From the IMG/VR virus record IMGVR_UViG_3300017949_000091, positions 1 through 20,325 of that record: a stretch of 20,325 bases of DNA; one strand, written 5' to 3'. How positions within the stretch are numbered: the stretch's first letter is position 1; every line of letters begins with the position of its first letter. A program made the position numbers and the translations under genes. Shown here in pieces: positions 10,660-20,325 of the stretch. Source of the DNA: a virus. Below the pieces are notes generated by a model. That model saw only the letters and a program-made list of their open reading frames with translations. It did not search any database and was not told the origin of the DNA.

Positions 10660-11022
10660 ATGTATAGAGAGTATTTAAAAGAAGCAGAAGGTAAAGAACT
10701 TTATGAATTTAAAGAAGGTTTAATTATATATCACTTAATGGGAGAAGGACAAGGTACTTATATAGATGCTATTTATATAAAACCAGAGTTTAGAACTAAA
10801 GATTCTGCTTTAGAGTATTCAGCTAAATTTTTAACAGTAATAAAAAAATATGAAGAAGATGTCTATGGAGAAGTAGATGAAGTACATCCTGAATCAGGTA
10901 AGATGTTATCTTTATATCTAAATATGGGATTTGATATACACAAAATAGAACATAAAAAAATAATTCTTAAAATGCCTCATACTACAGTAAAAAAACTATG
11001 GGATACTGTTAATGGAAGGTAA
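10660..11022 (+). CDS. GNAT-fold acetyltransferase-like protein
   Basis: A 120-residue protein with AGGGAG before the ATG, first after the structured gap. Parts of the GNAT order are visible: IDAIYIKPEFRTKDSALEYS (strand plus acetyl-CoA loop and helix; the usual R-x-x-G-x-G/A pattern is degraded to RTKDSA), a helix FLTVIKKYEED, then MLSLYLNMGFDIHKIEHKK (the typical LY..mGF signature) and a last strand IILKM. Loss of the canonical P-loop glycines makes acetyl transfer uncertain. Phages often keep such proteins with unknown targets. It overlaps the next gene by 11 bases. The gene is more AT-rich than its neighbours by eye. Confidence 0.55.
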   Translation: MYREYLKEAEGKELYEFKEGLIIYHLMGEGQGTYIDAIYIKPEFRTKDSALEYSAKFLTVIKKYEEDVYGEVDEVHPESGKMLSLYLNMGFDIHKIEHKKIILKMPHTTVKKLWDTVNGR

Positions 11023-12313: not shown

Positions 12314-12625
12314 TTAACAGTTCCATTTACGCAGCGACTTATTGATTCTACTATTAGGATCTCTTGCTGTCTTTGCTGAGGTTAATCTCTTCTTCATTCC
12401 ACTCATTCTAGCACAAAATGATTTACGTCTATTAGCAGCTTTACTACCTGGCTTTAACTTACTCGGCTTAGTAGTTACTGCCATCTTTAGCTTACTACCT
12501 GGATTCGCTCTACGATAAGAAGCTACACCCTTAGCGTTAAGTCCACCACTCTCGCTCTTACCTTCTTTACGTTGCCATGCTGCTGACAATTTTTTCTTTG
12601 CTACTTTTTTTGCCACATCTTTCAT
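12314..12625 (-). CDS. DUF6321-like conserved basic phage protein
   Basis: A 103-residue, very basic protein with AAGGA before the ATG, coupled to the end of the 959-aa gene (TAATG). The line SAAWQRKEGKSESGGLNAKG, followed by RRKSFCARMSGMKKRLTSAK and DPNSRINKSLRKWNC, matches a phage protein family I know as DUF6321-like. It is strongly conserved in marine and cyanophages but has no known function. The many Lys/Arg and the late-operon position would suit a DNA-associated virion component. Cys residues (FCARM and the terminal Cys) are typical of the family. Confidence 0.75.
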   Translation of the reverse strand: MKDVAKKVAKKKLSAAWQRKEGKSESGGLNAKGVASYRRANPGSKLKMAVTTKPSKLKPGSKAANRRKSFCARMSGMKKRLTSAKTARDPNSRINKSLRKWNC

Positions 12626-15504
12626 TAGTAATCCTTAATAAATTTATTTTGTTTCTTTTTAAATTGAAAGAAGTTAGCTGGATCACTTTGCTTTTCTTCA
12701 TACAATTCTTTAGGAATCATTCTAAATGACTCAGAAGATTGATTATTAAAAGCAGTAGATAATTCTTTTCTTCTTCTAGTATTTCTAATTTTTCCAATGT
12801 CAGCATTTACTTTTGCAATATCTTCTTCACTAAAAGCTCTACCTCCAAACCCTATACCTGGCTGTACATATTGAGCTGGTACGGCTCTAATTACCTGATC
12901 CATTAAAGCACTAACTGAACCTAGATCTCTATTGTCTATAGCTGTACTTAAATTACTAGCCATTTCAGGATCAATATCTTCTACTAAATGAAGTATTTTG
13001 TCAGCTCTTCTGATTACTTCATTAGGATCTCTAGCTAACGGCTGATCAATAAATGTAAGTTCTGCCATAGCTCTTGTCATGTTATCAAATTGATCGTTAG
13101 CACTCAAACTACTGGAAGTAACTAATCTATTAGCAATAGCAGCAGTAGCCTCAGGATTTTTTTCCATTATTCTTATAGCTTCGTTAGCTGACTTAGTTAT
13201 AGCTCCATTAAATCTTTTACTCATAGCTACGCCTCTAAGTCCTGCAATAGCTATACCTGTTTTAGCGTATGGAAGTCCTACAGTAGTTCCTAAAATACCA
13301 GCAGCAGAAGTATATCTAACAATAGAGTCAGTAAATACTCTGGACAATAAACTTTTACCGTCATCTATGTTCATTTGATTTTTAATAAATGAAGAAGCCT
13401 CCGCTAAGTCTCCATACTTTTGCTTTAAGCCCACATATTGTTGTCCTACATCAACTCCTAACTTACTACTCTCTTTTGCTAATGTTTCATCAATTATGTC
13501 ACCCATGATAGATCCTATTTGATCTTTACCTTGAGCAATTCTATATTGAATAGCTGCCTGAGCATCAGCCTCTTTAGGCATCCTAACGGATCTATACATA
13601 CGTTGTAATTGACTTTTTTGTTTAGATAATTCTGATAGATTCCATTGCTGAGGTTCAAATACTTCTTTTAATATATTAGCTCCTGTCTTAGGATCTACAG
13701 ATTGCTCAACGGATTTTAAACTTTGAGTAAGATTTATTAAGTAGTCATCAAGAGCTGCTGCTACAGCCTTATCTTCAGGTAAAGATTTAACAGCTTGCAT
13801 AGGTTTAATAATTTGTTCTCTAATTCTTGTTCTTAATTCATAGCCATTTATAGAAGGCTGCCCTAACATTTCGTCTACTTGATTTAGTAGAGCAGACATC
13901 TCTCCCCCTACAACATCAGCATTTTTATTTACAGAATTGTAAAAATCTTCTCTGTTCATAGTAGGTTTAATAAGTGGAGTTCCATCTAAGTCAGTGTAGT
14001 TTACCATTCTTTCTGCAAAAGCGTCTACTTGTTTACCTACTTGAGCTAACTTTGCTTTTGCTGTCAAAGAACCTGCTTTACTAGGCTGTCTATAGCCTCC
14101 AGTTAAAAAGTTTACTAAAGCAGAAGATCTTACTTTACCTAATGTATCCGTTACAGCTTCTACCCCAGCTCTATATGCTGGCATCATTGCTTCCCCAATA
14201 CCTCCTATAGCTCCGCCTATTGCCATATCTTTAGCAGCACCTTCTATGGTTTGTGCTTCAGTCCTACCTGCTTCATGAGCAATCCCACTAAGAGTTCCGT
14301 ATAGTACGCTACCTCCTCTTGTAAGTACACCTGCTCCAAAGGCAAGAGGTCCTACAGTAGCATAGTTTAATGCAGTACCAGCTAAGTCACCTGCCATATA
14401 AGATATTGGGTTATCAGTTCTGTACTGATCTACTAATTCTTTTTCAGAATTTTTATGTTTTCTATATTGTTCAGCTAAACGTGTTATTGGCATTTGATCG
14501 CCATCTAACTGAGCCTTAGTAAAGCTGGCTAAGGTATCATTAACAACTTGCTTACCTAAGTCAGTAGTGAGTACATCGTTTACTGTAGCAGCTCCAGCAG
14601 AAATTTCATCTTCAAGTCCGTAGCTAAATCCTTGTCCCATACCCTTCATAAAAGACTGTCCCATGCTAAACTCAGGTCTAGAAGGTTGTTCAGGTTGAGG
14701 AGCTTCAGTAGGTTGACTACCTTCTGGTCCTGATACTAATGTAAATGTTTTCTCAGGCTCTTGTCCTTCTGGACCTCTAACCAGTGTAAATTGTTTATCT
14801 GGATTTTCAATCTTTTCTGCCATTTCATTCCCCATAGCTGGTGCCAAAGGGTTTAAGTCTCCCAATGGGTTAGCTGATTCTTTTAATTCTTCTTTTGCTT
14901 TTTGTCTTTCTAGTACAGATTGTTCTGCTTCTGAATATATATCTTTTCCTATATATTCTCCTACTTCATCTGCTCCTGTCCATGTAGGCTGTCCATATTT
15001 GTACTCACCTTTACTATCTGGTAACGATGCCCATATTGTAGCCAAAGCATCTTGAGCAGCTTTTGGTTTACCAGATTCTAATTTTTTAAAAAACTTTGCT
15101 TGCTTTAATCTTTCTTCTACTAATCTGTCTTGTAACTCAGGACTAAATTTTTCATCCATAGATAGTTTTAATTTTTGAACTAGCCCAGGCATAAATTTAC
15201 CTGTTTTCTTATTTTTTGCTCCGAACAAGGTTGACTTAGTAAATTGATAGGCTCCAGCAGCAGTAGAATTTAATTTATTGTCTTTATTAGCTAATATACC
15301 TTCTTGATGTTTTTTTAATTCTGCAAGAGTCATTTCACTTACAGGTTTATCAGAAGCAGGGTCATATATACCATGTCCAAGAGTAACATCATAACTAGAT
15401 TTATATCCTTTTTTCTTAGCCTTAGGATGCTCTAAAGTAGTCCCCTCAGCTTTAATAATGTCAGCTCTTAATTTTTCTAAAAACTTCTTTCTTCTATCAC
15501 TCAT
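12625..15504 (-). CDS. Large ejection/internal virion protein with lambda-R-like transglycosylase domain
   Basis: A 959-residue protein. Residues 7 to about 170 follow the lambda R endolysin line: IIKAEGTT (E20 aligns with the catalytic Glu of lambda R), YDVTLGHG (38-45), STAAGAYQF (80-88), FSPELQDRL and TIWASLP (156-162). This predicts cleavage of peptidoglycan glycan strands without water. A Pro/Glu linker with two FTLVxGPEG repeats (239-262) follows. Then comes a long helical body with a Gly/Ala-rich hydrophobic stretch (about 370-440) that could insert into membrane, and a charged tail. The layout resembles T7 gp16-type injection proteins, which drill the cell wall during DNA entry. AGGGA precedes the ATG. 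No separate endolysin gene lies in the window. Confidence 0.8.
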   Translation of the reverse strand: MSDRRKKFLEKLRADIIKAEGTTLEHPKAKKKGYKSSYDVTLGHGIYDPASDKPVSEMTLAELKKHQEGILANKDNKLNSTAAGAYQFTKSTLFGAKNKKTGKFMPGLVQKLKLSMDEKFSPELQDRLVEERLKQAKFFKKLESGKPKAAQDALATIWASLPDSKGEYKYGQPTWTGADEVGEYIGKDIYSEAEQSVLERQKAKEELKESANPLGDLNPLAPAMGNEMAEKIENPDKQFTLVRGPEGQEPEKTFTLVSGPEGSQPTEAPQPEQPSRPEFSMGQSFMKGMGQGFSYGLEDEISAGAATVNDVLTTDLGKQVVNDTLASFTKAQLDGDQMPITRLAEQYRKHKNSEKELVDQYRTDNPISYMAGDLAGTALNYATVGPLAFGAGVLTRGGSVLYGTLSGIAHEAGRTEAQTIEGAAKDMAIGGAIGGIGEAMMPAYRAGVEAVTDTLGKVRSSALVNFLTGGYRQPSKAGSLTAKAKLAQVGKQVDAFAERMVNYTDLDGTPLIKPTMNREDFYNSVNKNADVVGGEMSALLNQVDEMLGQPSINGYELRTRIREQIIKPMQAVKSLPEDKAVAAALDDYLINLTQSLKSVEQSVDPKTGANILKEVFEPQQWNLSELSKQKSQLQRMYRSVRMPKEADAQAAIQYRIAQGKDQIGSIMGDIIDETLAKESSKLGVDVGQQYVGLKQKYGDLAEASSFIKNQMNIDDGKSLLSRVFTDSIVRYTSAAGILGTTVGLPYAKTGIAIAGLRGVAMSKRFNGAITKSANEAIRIMEKNPEATAAIANRLVTSSSLSANDQFDNMTRAMAELTFIDQPLARDPNEVIRRADKILHLVEDIDPEMASNLSTAIDNRDLGSVSALMDQVIRAVPAQYVQPGIGFGGRAFSEEDIAKVNADIGKIRNTRRRKELSTAFNNQSSESFRMIPKELYEEKQSDPANFFQFKKKQNKFIKDY
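14716..14790 (-). repeat. Two FTLVxGPEG repeats in the ejection protein linker
   Basis: Residues 239-247 (FTLVRGPEG) and 254-262 (FTLVSGPEG) of the 959-aa protein repeat with a 15-residue period inside a Pro/Glu-rich linker. They sit between the transglycosylase domain and the helical body. A tandem duplication of about 45 bases is the likely origin. The linker probably gives the enzyme domain freedom to move. Confidence 0.6.
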
Positions 15505-15506
15505 AT

Positions 15507-16520
15507 TTATTTTTCCCTATAAGATCCATCTGGCATTACTACATATTGTTTACCTGACTGATCCTGTATAATAGATCCTGGAGCAAATTGTTGTGATCTT
15601 TGTCTTTCTGCTCCTTGTTTTTTCTGAAGTAATTTTTGCTGTTCGCCTAAAGCTTTCTGGTATCCTTGTAGCCATTCATCAATAACTTTTTTAGAGGAGC
15701 GTAAAGTAGGTACAGCTTTTTGAGCAAATCTTAATTCAAAGTCAGACTTTTGACCTGTAAGTTTTTGTAGTTTTTCTAATGCTTTGGAGTCAAATATTGT
15801 TTGAAGTTTAAACCTAGTACCTTCTCTTCCCACAGCATCAGCATCATCAGACATTTTATCAAGAGTTCTAAATTGCTCAGATCCAGCAAAGTACCCTACT
15901 GATTTAGGAAACAGTTTTAAATCTTTCATAGCATCAGTAGTTTGTTGAATTGTTTGATTTATATCCTCCATAGAGGTTTGTTGTTTCTCTATCTTTTCTC
16001 TAGATTTTTCTTCTTTCTCTTCTTCATATTTTTTCTGCTCAAAAGCTAGTCTTCTATCTGCTGTAGATTGCGGAGTTACCCCTTTTTTTCTTTGATCCAT
16101 TAAAAATTTTCTATCTTCAGCATGTTCTTTAGCAGCTAACTGACGAGCTTGATACCCTTCAAACCCACTCATTATTTTATCAGTCATAGCCATTGCAGAG
16201 TTACCTCCGAACAATTGCGCTACAAGCCGAGGTCCAAAGTATGACATTGCATCTTTAAATTGTGTGTCTAAAGAATCTCTAGTTCTGTTAAGAAACTCCT
16301 GTTTATCAGAGCCTTGCTGTTGAGCTTGCATCTCTTGAGCTTTAGCTTGTTTAGCTTGATTAATAGAAGCTACACCTTGCTGCATGGATTGTTGAGAAGT
16401 GTTTGCAGCAGAAGTATTCTTATTAATCTCTTTCTTTAACTTATTCTCGTCATCAATAGGCTGGTCTTGAATCTCAGTATCAGCTAAATTTGTAGCTTTT
16501 TTTAGTTTCTCATTTGCCAT
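15507..16520 (-). CDS. Gln/Lys-rich internal virion protein candidate
   Basis: A 337-residue protein with AAGGA 8 bases before the ATG, overlapping the Hint gene by 11 bases. The N-terminal 90 residues are low-complexity and Q/A-rich (MQQGVASINQAKQAKAQEMQ). The middle is charged helix (RRLAFEQKKYEEEKEEKSRE) likely to form a coiled coil. The C-terminal third has more order (LKLFPKSVGYFAGSEQFRTL...RFAQKAVPTLRSSKKVIDEW) and ends GKQYVVMPDGSYREK. Its place between the 394-aa and 959-aa genes mirrors the three-protein ejection modules of podoviruses (for example T7 gp14/15/16, P22 gp7/20/16). No direct homology is seen. Confidence 0.65.
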   Translation of the reverse strand: MANEKLKKATNLADTEIQDQPIDDENKLKKEINKNTSAANTSQQSMQQGVASINQAKQAKAQEMQAQQQGSDKQEFLNRTRDSLDTQFKDAMSYFGPRLVAQLFGGNSAMAMTDKIMSGFEGYQARQLAAKEHAEDRKFLMDQRKKGVTPQSTADRRLAFEQKKYEEEKEEKSREKIEKQQTSMEDINQTIQQTTDAMKDLKLFPKSVGYFAGSEQFRTLDKMSDDADAVGREGTRFKLQTIFDSKALEKLQKLTGQKSDFELRFAQKAVPTLRSSKKVIDEWLQGYQKALGEQQKLLQKKQGAERQRSQQFAPGSIIQDQSGKQYVVMPDGSYREK

Positions 16521-17694
16521 AATTAATTCCTTTCATTCTATATGTCATGTCTTCTCTTACTTCTCTATAGTTCTCTTCCATGCCAAAGTCACCTGATACA
16601 AAACTAGTTACATAACATCTATTCTCTGTATATATTGGGTATACTACATCATGATTAGCACCAGTATAAAGTGAAGCATGAACAGATTCGTCAGCTCTTT
16701 GATATGTTTCTGATTTAGGATCAAATATTAAGTGAGATTGAGTGAATACTTCTCCATTTAAAGTGTACATAAGTTCTTTAGTAAGGACAGTTCCAGTACC
16801 TTCTACCTTACCTCCTAGCATTACTTCGTCACCTATTTTTATATCTTCTATATTTTTGTAAGAGTGGTCAGCCATAAGAACTTTAGTACCTGCTATGTGA
16901 CACCCTCCACCTCTTTTTGCAGCCGCATCTGCTTGCATTTGAGCAGCTCTTTCAGAACTAGCCATTTGCTCATATCCCATAATAGATTGAAACATGATGT
17001 CTCTTTCTTTAGCAGCCTGTCCAATGTCAAAAGTTTTAACTTCTCCTAATGAAGATGAGTAAGATTCTAGTCCCTGTCTTTTGGCAGATTCTTGAGCCAT
17101 GAAAATATCTGACTCTATATTAGCTCTAGCAGCCAAGCCTTGCGCAGCCAAACTTCGCTGTTGAGCCGCAACCCCAGCACCCTTAGCACCGCCTAATGCA
17201 CCGCCTAACTGGAACCCTGCCATTTGTTGAGCTTGTCCCATCTGTTGAGCCATTCGAGCCCTCATTTGCTCACGCTCTGCTGAACTAATACCTTCGTCTG
17301 CTATCTTCTTCTTTCTTCGTAATACTTCCTGAACATCTCTGTCAGCTCCCATTCGCTCTAGTCCGTCTGGACCTAGAATTTCAAGACCTGTCTGAATACC
17401 TTTTTCTTTTGCAGATAATTCAGGATTTTGTAAACTTTTTATTTGAGCATCTATACCTGCTTGCTTAGAATCAAACTCTTGCTGCTTCATTTGATCTTGC
17501 CTCTGTCTTTCTCTACGTTGAGATGTAGAAGCTCCGTATAGAAAAGCAGAATTAGATGCTTGATCTGGTTTAGATGCATCAAAATTAGCCTGATTCTGTA
17601 TTTTCTGTTGTTCTAATTTTTTTATTTCAGAATTTCTACCAGCCTGAGCTTGCTGCTGCTGTCGTTGATAACTCTTTACATAATTACTTGCCAT
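16510..17694 (-). CDS. Q/A-rich virion protein with C-terminal Hint (hedgehog/intein) domain
   Basis: A 394-residue protein; the ATG at 17694 has GAGG 6 bases upstream. Residues 1-261 are Gln/Ala-rich helix (ARMAQQMGQAQQMAGFQLGG), like small ejection proteins. After GGG the rest is a Hint domain: C265 starts CHIAGTKVLMADHSYKNIED, then IKIGDEVML (block A), FTQSH (T318-x-x-H321, block B) and VYPIYTENRCY (350-361, block F-like). Hint domains attack their own N-terminal peptide bond at the Cys. There is no C-terminal His-Asn and no extein after it, so splicing is unlikely. Release of a 264-residue mature protein or attachment to a nucleophile is possible. The His that often stands in the block F TxNH motif is Arg359. 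Confidence 0.82.
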   Translation of the reverse strand: MASNYVKSYQRQQQQAQAGRNSEIKKLEQQKIQNQANFDASKPDQASNSAFLYGASTSQRRERQRQDQMKQQEFDSKQAGIDAQIKSLQNPELSAKEKGIQTGLEILGPDGLERMGADRDVQEVLRRKKKIADEGISSAEREQMRARMAQQMGQAQQMAGFQLGGALGGAKGAGVAAQQRSLAAQGLAARANIESDIFMAQESAKRQGLESYSSSLGEVKTFDIGQAAKERDIMFQSIMGYEQMASSERAAQMQADAAAKRGGGCHIAGTKVLMADHSYKNIEDIKIGDEVMLGGKVEGTGTVLTKELMYTLNGEVFTQSHLIFDPKSETYQRADESVHASLYTGANHDVVYPIYTENRCYVTSFVSGDFGMEENYREVREDMTYRMKGINYGK

Positions 17695-17696
17695 AT

Positions 17697-18020
17697 TTAC
17701 CTCATAAATACAACGGTAGCTTTAACCGTTTCATTTCCATTATTCTTCAAATATATATTATCTATATTCCATTGAATAGTTTCTTTACCGTCTTGTAAAG
17801 TGGTTTTAGTTAATAGTCCGTTGCCTTCTTGCGACACAATTATATACCTAGTAGGCGTAGAAGTCAACTTATTTCTTATAGTTACAGTCTTTCCAGCCGC
17901 TACTGAGAACGTAGTTTCAAAGGTTTCCATGTTATCTGCGAAGGTAAGCCTTCCCAAACCATGCGTAAGTTTGCTCACTAACTCCTCAATATCTTTAATA
18001 GTTTCTAGACTAAATTTCAT
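17697..18020 (-). CDS. Conserved small tail-associated protein
   Basis: A 107-residue protein coupled by a 1-base TAATG overlap to the large tail gene. The N-terminal helix MKFSLETIKDIEELVSKLTH leads into GLGRLTFADNMETFETTF and then a beta region (KTVTIRNKLTSTPTRYIIVS, QEGNGLLTK, ETIQWNIDNIYLKNN, TVKATVVFMR). I recall this helix-plus-beta-sandwich pattern, with the LGRLTFADN and PTRYIIVSQ lines, next to tail genes in other podoviruses. Its position suggests a minor tail, adaptor or chaperone role. No function is established. Confidence 0.7.
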   Translation of the reverse strand: MKFSLETIKDIEELVSKLTHGLGRLTFADNMETFETTFSVAAGKTVTIRNKLTSTPTRYIIVSQEGNGLLTKTTLQDGKETIQWNIDNIYLKNNGNETVKATVVFMR

Positions 18021-20325
18021 TACTCTTTGATCTCCGGTCTATATGGAGCTGCTATTTCAAGCTCATAGTTAGTTATTAGCACGTTTTCATTGTTCTCATT
18101 ATTAGCAAATCTTATTTTAAAAGACCTAGCTTTACCTGTAGGCAATTTACTCTTTAAATATTGAGCAGGAATAGATCCCCAGGAATCACTCCCCCAGGCA
18201 AAATTACCCCAGCCTCCACCAGTAATAGCTCCAAAGTCAAAAGTTATCTTTCCTTCATTATAGTTTTGATAATTCTTTTGAATACCTGCTTCAAGTAAGA
18301 ATCCTGGAGACTCAAATACACCGTCAGTGTCAAAGCTATGTACTTTAATACGCAAAAACTTTTTAGGTGTTGTAGGATCTCCTAAAGATTCCCAATTAGT
18401 TTCATACACAAAGTTTATAGGGTTCCCATTATCACTATAATCGTCAGTATCTCCTTGATTATTAACGGTAGCTAACGTGTTTGTAGTGTTTGTCAATTGA
18501 GCAAAGTTTAAAACCCCATCAACTTCTGTAATACCATTAGTAAATTCTATAGTATCCCAGCGTAACCATGCTCCCCTATAGTAATCAAAAGCTAAAATTA
18601 AACTATCTTTAGATATATAGGCATCCATAGTATCATTTATAATACTATACTCTTGATCTCCTTGAACTATGTAGTCAGGTATACATATAAGAAGTAGGTT
18701 TCTATCCGTCCAATTGTAAGTAATAGCTTTTTCTTTTATAAACTTATCTTGTAAAAATAGTGGTTTAATAATTTCAGATATTTCAGACAATCCTTGATTA
18801 CTAATACTAAATACTCCTGTATGAGATACGAAGGCAAGACCTCCTTTAAATTCTTCGATGGAAGCTTGACTAGTACACCCTACGCCCCCTTCTTTAGTAA
18901 TTAAGTTTACAGAAGGTAGCTCTAACTGGTTTATATTACCAGTAACACTAAATATACTATCTTTATGAAATACAAAAAGAGCATCTCTAAGAGCCGCTAC
19001 GGCAGTAATTTTTGAACCAAATGGAGATTCTACTACAATACCGTTATCATCATCTGGAAAGTATTCAGAACCTATCTCACCTGTAGTAAAGTTTTTAGGT
19101 AATGAGTATTGAACATTATTAACATTATCATTTTGACCAGCTATAACTAAACAGTTTTTAAATATGGTCAAATATTTTCCCTTAGGTGGGGGGTCTTTCC
19201 TTTTTATAGGTTCTACAAACGCTAAGAAAGGGTTTATTACTGGGTCATATTGTGTAGCTGCTTCTGCATCATTTGGCTCATCGTGGTATGTGTCTGTAAA
19301 TGTGGTAGGTAAAAAAGTACCTGGATTATTTGGATCCTCTGTTCCTCCAGCCACATATTCTAAGTCTGCTATTTTATAGTATTGTCCTACAACTTCACCT
19401 GCTATAGGAGAATATCCTTTTGATCTATATACTAAAATACGCAGCCTATTTTCTCCACTTAATTTTTCTATTGGATAATTAGTATCTGTTAAAGTAGTAC
19501 CTAAAGTAACTCCATTAGCTTCTTGCCAGGCTGTATCAAATACACCGTTTGTTTTAAAGGTACTTAAATCTGATATAGTTAATGGAAAAGTTAGATTTAC
19601 ACTTCTACCAGAACCTACAACTAGTTTAACTGGATCTGAAGGTTGACTACTTATAATGTTTCCTTTATAGTCAGTGTACTCATAAGCAAATCTATATTCG
19701 TAAGTTCTATCTCTTACAGCAGAAGAGACATCAACAATCTCTAGATCTCCATATATTAAAGCTTTATCTGATGGAACAGCTCCAGTATTATCTGTAAACA
19801 TTGCTTTAGTTATTCTAATATGGTTTGTATAATTGCCGTTAGCATCTTCTCCTAAATAACTAGTACCTTTTTCTACTGTATAATAATTTTTAATTCCTCC
19901 ATTACCATCAGTAATTACTTCTATCTGCAATCCTGTTCCAGATACTACAGTAGCTCCCTGAGCTGTGGTAAGTAAGTAAGTATTGTAAGCCTTTAAACTT
20001 CCAAAACTAGAAGGGTAACTAGAACCTACTGGCGCCTCTTTTCTATAAAATCCATCTGCATCAAATTGAAATAAATATTTGTAATCAGCAGTTAAATTTT
20101 CTGATACAATAGATTCCCCTGTAGAAGGATCTAGAACAGGGCTATACGTAGTATCATTAAAAGTAAAAAATTCTACTTGACCAGGTTGAATCTTGTGCAA
20201 ATAATTTGTATTAGGGCTAGTAATAGTATTAAAACTAAATGTAGCTATATCTTTACTACAATTAGGTAGACCTGCTCTATATACAGATTCTCCATCATAC
20301 TTTAATAGAGGATCTATACCATTAG
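18020..20325 (-). CDS. Large tail protein, nozzle-like (5' end beyond window)
   Basis: The reading frame is open from the window edge to 18020. A TTG at 20200 could be read as a start, but coding continues above it (GIDPLLKYDGESVYRAGLPN, followed by ITSPNTNYLHK), so the gene is truncated, with at least 767 residues present. It is beta-rich with an immunoglobulin-like middle (YEYRFAYEYTDYKGNIISSQ). A propeller-like set of repeats follows: KGKYLTIFKNCLVIAG, FGSKITAVAALRDALFVFHK, DSIFSVTG, GGLAFVSHTGVFSISNQ. Similar text occurs in podovirus tail nozzle proteins (T7 gp12 type), which carry DNA to the cell envelope. A gene at the head of this ejection/tail cluster fits. Confidence 0.65.
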   Translation of the reverse strand, partial: NGIDPLLKYDGESVYRAGLPNCSKDIATFSFNTITSPNTNYLHKIQPGQVEFFTFNDTTYSPVLDPSTGESIVSENLTADYKYLFQFDADGFYRKEAPVGSSYPSSFGSLKAYNTYLLTTAQGATVVSGTGLQIEVITDGNGGIKNYYTVEKGTSYLGEDANGNYTNHIRITKAMFTDNTGAVPSDKALIYGDLEIVDVSSAVRDRTYEYRFAYEYTDYKGNIISSQPSDPVKLVVGSGRSVNLTFPLTISDLSTFKTNGVFDTAWQEANGVTLGTTLTDTNYPIEKLSGENRLRILVYRSKGYSPIAGEVVGQYYKIADLEYVAGGTEDPNNPGTFLPTTFTDTYHDEPNDAEAATQYDPVINPFLAFVEPIKRKDPPPKGKYLTIFKNCLVIAGQNDNVNNVQYSLPKNFTTGEIGSEYFPDDDNGIVVESPFGSKITAVAALRDALFVFHKDSIFSVTGNINQLELPSVNLITKEGGVGCTSQASIEEFKGGLAFVSHTGVFSISNQGLSEISEIIKPLFLQDKFIKEKAITYNWTDRNLLLICIPDYIVQGDQEYSIINDTMDAYISKDSLILAFDYYRGAWLRWDTIEFTNGITEVDGVLNFAQLTNTTNTLATVNNQGDTDDYSDNGNPINFVYETNWESLGDPTTPKKFLRIKVHSFDTDGVFESPGFLLEAGIQKNYQNYNEGKITFDFGAITGGGWGNFAWGSDSWGSIPAQYLKSKLPTGKARSFKIRFANNENNENVLITNYELEIAAPYRPEIKE

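Follow-up and report, generated by a model that had tools for sequence, protein, structure and literature searches.

The window analysed here is a complete IMG/VR virus record of 20,325 bases. Its genes of interest (Table 1) are arranged in the order gp11-like protein, 1247-aa tail/virion protein, 107-aa protein, 394-aa protein with a C-terminal Hint domain, 337-aa protein, 959-aa protein. The N-terminal part of the 394-aa protein (below, the N-part) ends in a Gly-rich junction, AAAKRGGG. In the remainder of this reading frame all motifs named in the initial annotation are present, that is, Cys265, GTKV..AD..YKNIEDIKIGDEV, T318 and H321, and VYPIYTENRCY (residues 351–361).

Table 1. Features of the Hint locus in the window and of the alternative module in syntenic phages
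Feature	Position	Strand	Basis or remark
394-aa protein, gp14 position: N-part and C-terminal Hint module	16510..17694	-	ORF translation, relatives
N-part, residues 1–264	16903..17694	-	homologous in syntenic relatives with and without Hint
Hint core, residues 265–370	16585..16902	-	HMM, AlphaFold model, PDB matches
Cys265, Hint residue 1, expected nucleophile	16900..16902	-	invariant in relatives; 56/56 complete wider-family members
Thr318, block B (TxxH)	16741..16743	-	unchanged throughout the close family, replaced by Ser or Ala in the wider one
His321, block B histidine	16732..16734	-	invariant in the close and wider family; Gln in L215
Asp369, aligned with the intein penultimate His	16588..16590	-	wider-family alignment, structure match
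Phe370, aligned with the intein terminal Asn; the wider family has Tyr/Phe	16585..16587	-	alignment, structure match
C-terminal tail, 24 residues (371–394)	16513..16584	-	no extein
337-aa protein, gp15 position; 11-base overlap with the Hint gene	15507..16520	-	order conserved in relatives
959-aa gp16-like protein, N-terminal peptidoglycan hydrolase	12625..15504	-	phrog_90, 4e-18
Tail/virion protein of 1247 aa, C-terminal part, upstream neighbour	18020..20323	-	PHROG 5107, 511, 3287
VVCTELHxQG module, about 113 aa	L105:13994-14329; L108:7640-7978; L113:8631-8969		invariant Cys near the start

In the window and its syntenic relatives, the gene order ahead of the gp15-like and gp16-like proteins matches that of a podovirus gp14-like ejection protein. 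Ejection proteins follow the order gp14, gp15 and a gp16-like protein with an N-terminal peptidoglycan hydrolase, and their conservation is mosaic (PMC8954989). The hydrolase of the gp16-like protein is swapped among the relatives (L029, L006, L003), being phrog_90 endolysin-like, PF00959 Phage_lysozyme, GH108, or none found. The ejection proteins T7 gp14 and P22 gp7 are similar to the window protein in gene order and mosaic conservation, but their reported length is 181–240 aa (PMC8954989) compared to 264 aa of the N-part, and the window protein has no sequence match to them and carries an added Hint domain. The N-part yields no convincing Pfam or PHROG family match, and no transmembrane segment stands out in it, the highest 19-residue hydropathy being only 0.81 by a crude measure. 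Hence the label of ejection protein given initially is a positional one, derived from gene order: the place in the ejection-protein block and the interchangeable hydrolase domains downstream agree with it. The structural protein of Pelagibacter phage HTVC115P is a weak match to the upstream gene, and the genes after it show no Hint. The window also encodes, at 12314–12625, a 103-aa protein with the end DPNSRINKSLRKWNC, which is near-unchanged in relatives and matches the C-terminal end of the far longer phrog_727, 3477 (function unknown).

The Pfam search produced two Hint matches (PF05203, 1.4e-6; PF01079, 1.1e-3), both covering the N-terminal block only and both under the curated cut-off; taken alone, they would be weak support for a Hint domain. 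We then relied on an HMM trained on 32 distant terminal phage Hints, with the window, its relatives and the distant phage L049 excluded. Of the 274 ORFs in the window it picked only the 394-aa one (E 3.2e-17, 56.7 bits), the match extended beyond block B to TENRC (residue 360), and the domain scored 60.2 bits against 8.6 bits for the best of 1000 shuffles. The PDB sequence search with the domain gave no match under E 0.25, and the GTDB scan gave general Hint or intein-block matches only. An alignment with ordinary HN-type phage Hints, in which block B and the C-terminal half were misplaced, was left out.

The AlphaFold model of the domain (113 aa), built on an alignment of 38 sequences, has pLDDT 85.8 and pTM 0.76. 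The 50 PDB entries listed by Foldseek and VIA-align for this model are Hint, intein, BIL, hedgehog or Vint structures with Z of 9.4–12.7, including BIL2 (Z 12.7, rmsd 2.4 over 110) and hedgehog 1at0 (Z 11.4, rmsd 2.2 over 104 residues). Thus residues 265–370 are confirmed as a true Hint domain, a member of the Hint superfamily. The initial annotation had proposed such a domain at residues 265 to about 378, to be checked by profile search, structure prediction and conservation of Cys265 and His321. Its start is retained, whereas the core stops at residue 370 and is followed by a tail; the predicted fold and the conservation agree with the proposal, and so do the profile searches, firmly with the family HMM and weakly with Pfam.

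Phe370 (model residue 109) falls on the terminal Asn in several inteins and on Cys400 in hedgehog, both correspondences being taken from where the aligned regions stop rather than from residue-by-residue output. As many of these regions stop with Phe370 on the intein terminal Asn, the pair Asp369-Phe370 occupies the place of His-Asn, and 24 residues follow it. The initial reading that this domain, having neither C-terminal Asn nor extein, is not a splicing intein therefore stands. Since His-Asn is replaced and no extein exists, splicing and C-terminal cleavage are excluded on known chemistry, which leaves the N-terminal reaction as the only one possible.

The best structural matches are the BIL domains, namely T. 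thermophila BUBL1 BIL2 (6y75, 6tmm) and the C. thermocellum BIL (2lwy), with Z of 12.7, 12.2 and 11.9. They share Cys1 and the lack of a +1 nucleophile with the window Hint; however, a terminal Asn is named in the solved BIL2 construct (N143A), and in the window Asp-Phe stands for His-Asn with no extein after it. A-type BIL domains are defined by a His-Asn end without the +1 nucleophile, and Asp369-Phe370 stands at this position in the window; B-type BIL domains have conserved motifs of their own and perform N-terminal cleavage. The hedgehog Hog domain (1at0), which uses the N-terminal reaction only, has its layout in common with the window domain, being a C-terminal Hint that ends its protein. 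Its junction, Gly-Cys-Phe, is the same in the wider family described below and is Gly-Cys-His in the window. The terminal Asn position is replaced in hedgehog too, but the window domain has no Cys at Phe370, belongs to a phage protein, and lacks a sterol-recognition region. Class 1 and 3 splicing inteins have the Hint fold, Cys1 and block B TxxH in common with the window domain, and differ from it in having the terminal His-Asn, a C-extein with +1 Cys, Ser or Thr, and an endonuclease.

Full-length relatives of the 394-aa protein show overall identity of 100% (L001, L002), 80% (L003) and 41–47% (L004, L005/L006, L029); none was found among 50,697 phage records. Cys265, Thr318, Ser320, His321, Asp369 and the stretch TENRCYVTSFVSGDFGME are invariant in all of them. 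At residue 264, the last before the junction (position -1), the window and L003 have Gly, and L004, L005 and L029 have Gln. The Hint domain is 63–68% identical between the two clades, compared to 41–51% for the N-part, while within clades the picture is mixed (83% for the N-part and 76% for the Hint between the window and L003). The Hint domain is under purifying selection, with dN/dS well below 1 (dN 0.18, dS 1.09 for the window and L003; dN 0.15, dS 1.02 for L004 and L029).

L049, a distant phage whose upstream PHROG neighbours are the same, shares the layout at an identity of about 30%. The wider family, collected by a DNA pattern scan and then a family scan, comprises 57 distinct modules with the consensus GCF.AGT...GG...SGSH...VYxFGTENRR....FTDYFE and 24–38% identity to the window domain. 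Cys is the first residue in each of the 56 modules whose start is complete. The block B pattern [SA]G[STED]H is found in 56 of the 57, as is the block F pattern TD[YF], the remaining one being L354, which is an ordinary intein and also the only complete module with a residue other than Gly at -1 (Gly in 55/56). Gly264 as the fixed site of cleavage, as initially suggested, is weakened by the Gln of the close relatives, although the wider family has Gly. The Hint terminates the carrier in every case, with 2–40 residues beyond the last motif. In the distant member L215, Gln replaces the block B His and Cys replaces the Asp, and therefore the members cannot all work alike.

The carriers comprise Gly-rich proteins about 480 aa long, a 1,370-aa protein with DUF4815 (PF16075, 3e-55), Gly-zipper proteins, and proteins with weak tape-measure PHROG matches, that is, several unrelated virion-type proteins; many have Gly-rich linkers or Gly-zippers just ahead of the Hint. 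The window domain is a member of this large phage family, in which the Hint is always the last domain and has Asp-Tyr/Phe instead of His-Asn. We found no description of it in the open-access literature, and this absence is weak evidence, as only open-access papers were covered. Five loci (L297, L246, L324, L327, L353) contain tandem Hints, where a Hint ending in His-Asn-Lys-Gly comes immediately before one of the terminal Cys...FTDYF type. RecA-like proteins in L030-L032, L042-L048, L057 and L068 end about 100 residues into the N-half of a Hint, like the N-parts of split inteins.

Syntenic phages were gathered by a scan with the gp11-like protein. The N-part at the gp14 position is homologous in them, and the sequence after the junction varies. 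It is a Hint in L102, L104, L109, L110 and L112, the VVCTELHxQG module in L105, L108 and L113, a Gly-rich hydrophobic or short tail in L111 and L115, and different again in L114, L116 and L117. No module follows the junction in L106 and L107, which end in SKSGGGKK; L106 terminates with SEAASKSGGGKK, two residues past the junction, and cleavage would leave the window protein with the end AAAKRGGG. The VVCTELHxQG module has no Pfam or PHROG match and is possibly present in a protein of phage HMO-2011 (a weak match, E 0.2). It also terminates Gly-zipper proteins (L360, L363, L364), a carrier type ending elsewhere in a Hint, so the two modules appear to replace each other on two kinds of carriers; the module occurs in L360-L364. 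On the tree of the gp11-like protein, the six module labels need six changes, the least possible number being five, which is compatible with one gain of the Hint or with several. In two Hint-less relatives a small GNAT-like ORF lies beside the gp14-position gene (L106:12190-12540, L115:12714-13061), and the window ORF 10660-11022 is similar-looking.

Since relatives have the other module, a Gly-rich tail or nothing at this position, the Hint is an exchangeable end module and not an obligatory maturation switch. It is dispensable for the gp14-position protein as such, and the built-in maturation switch proposed initially is weakened accordingly.

We predict an N-S acyl shift at 264/265, resolved by water or another nucleophile, with a probability slightly above one half (about 0.52). 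Cys265, aided by His321 and Thr318, would attack the preceding peptide bond, and the N-part would then be held as a thioester. With neither Asn nor extein available, the reaction would stop short of splicing; the thioester would be resolved by water or an outside nucleophile, perhaps with the help of Asp369, and the N-part would be either released from the Hint domain or joined C-terminally to something else. The module itself is an exchangeable end piece on the gp14-position protein of this phage lineage rather than an intrinsic maturation step. Precedents are hedgehog, which performs the N-S acyl shift only, and BIL domains without the +1 nucleophile, which mainly cleave (PMC7664689). We counted in favour of the reaction the Hint fold, the sequence matches, the conserved residues, purifying selection, the slower change of the Hint compared to the N-part between clades, and the end of the Hint-less L106 protein close to the junction. 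Counted against it were Ser or Ala for the block B Thr in the wider family, Gln at -1 in three close relatives, the L215 substitutions and the relatives without the domain.

A less probable but serious competitor is a stable, non-cleaving Hint that forms an end piece with a structural or binding role, its Cys and His being kept for folding or a disulfide. The exchange at one and the same junction with nothing, or with a module of no Hint similarity, agrees with this, as does the variable block B Thr. Moreover, VVCTEL and Hint modules share Gly-zipper carriers, and therefore their common role need not be catalysis. However, Cys1, the block B His and the Asp are retained across proteins only 24–38% identical to that of the window, and structure alone would hardly account for the Gly that the wider family has at -1.

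As a special case of the N-terminal reaction, the domain could be a putative transferase that passes the thioester to a virion partner, a lipid or a cell-wall amine and so anchors or cross-links the protein; we consider this rather unlikely. Hedgehog joins its protein to cholesterol. A terminal Hint would be of little use if merely shed, many carriers have a Gly-rich linker or a Gly-zipper ahead of it, a hydrophobic Gly-rich tail is found at the junction of the Hint-less L111 and just before the junction in the carrier L331, and Asp369 could, from its position, serve as a base. On the other hand, there is no known acceptor, and the short tails after the Hint (24 aa here, 2–40 aa in the family) contain no region resembling the sterol-recognition one. 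Similarly doubtful is the extension to the whole family, by which widespread phage terminal Hint transferases would join C-termini of virion proteins to a partner or a cell-surface molecule in a hedgehog- or sortase-like manner; the carriers would then tentatively include ejection-block, DUF4815, Gly-rich tail-like and Gly-zipper proteins.

A degenerate intein, that is, a decaying selfish element that has lost its C-extein, would explain the absent terminal Asn and +1 nucleophile, but is very improbable: the domain is under purifying selection, the same layout recurs in more than 50 distinct modules on unrelated carriers, and no extein remnant is seen, the next gene directly adjoining and being conserved in relatives. 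We rejected a relict intein on selection and wide conservation. Finally, chance likeness of a non-Hint domain to the N-terminal intein block, compatible with Pfam matches that span just 28–57 residues under the cut-off, is ruled out by the predicted fold, the PDB structure matches, the distant-Hint HMM and the full-length family alignment, and has a negligible probability.

If the N-terminal reaction takes place, the family would represent an autoprocessing or ligating module inside phage particles, common to unrelated virion proteins, and would offer an example of covalent protein processing in assembly or DNA entry that can be tested directly. It would also be a natural half-reaction Hint, possibly useful in the way inteins are. 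If the domain is inactive, Hint domains would have been reused by phages as exchangeable end pieces.
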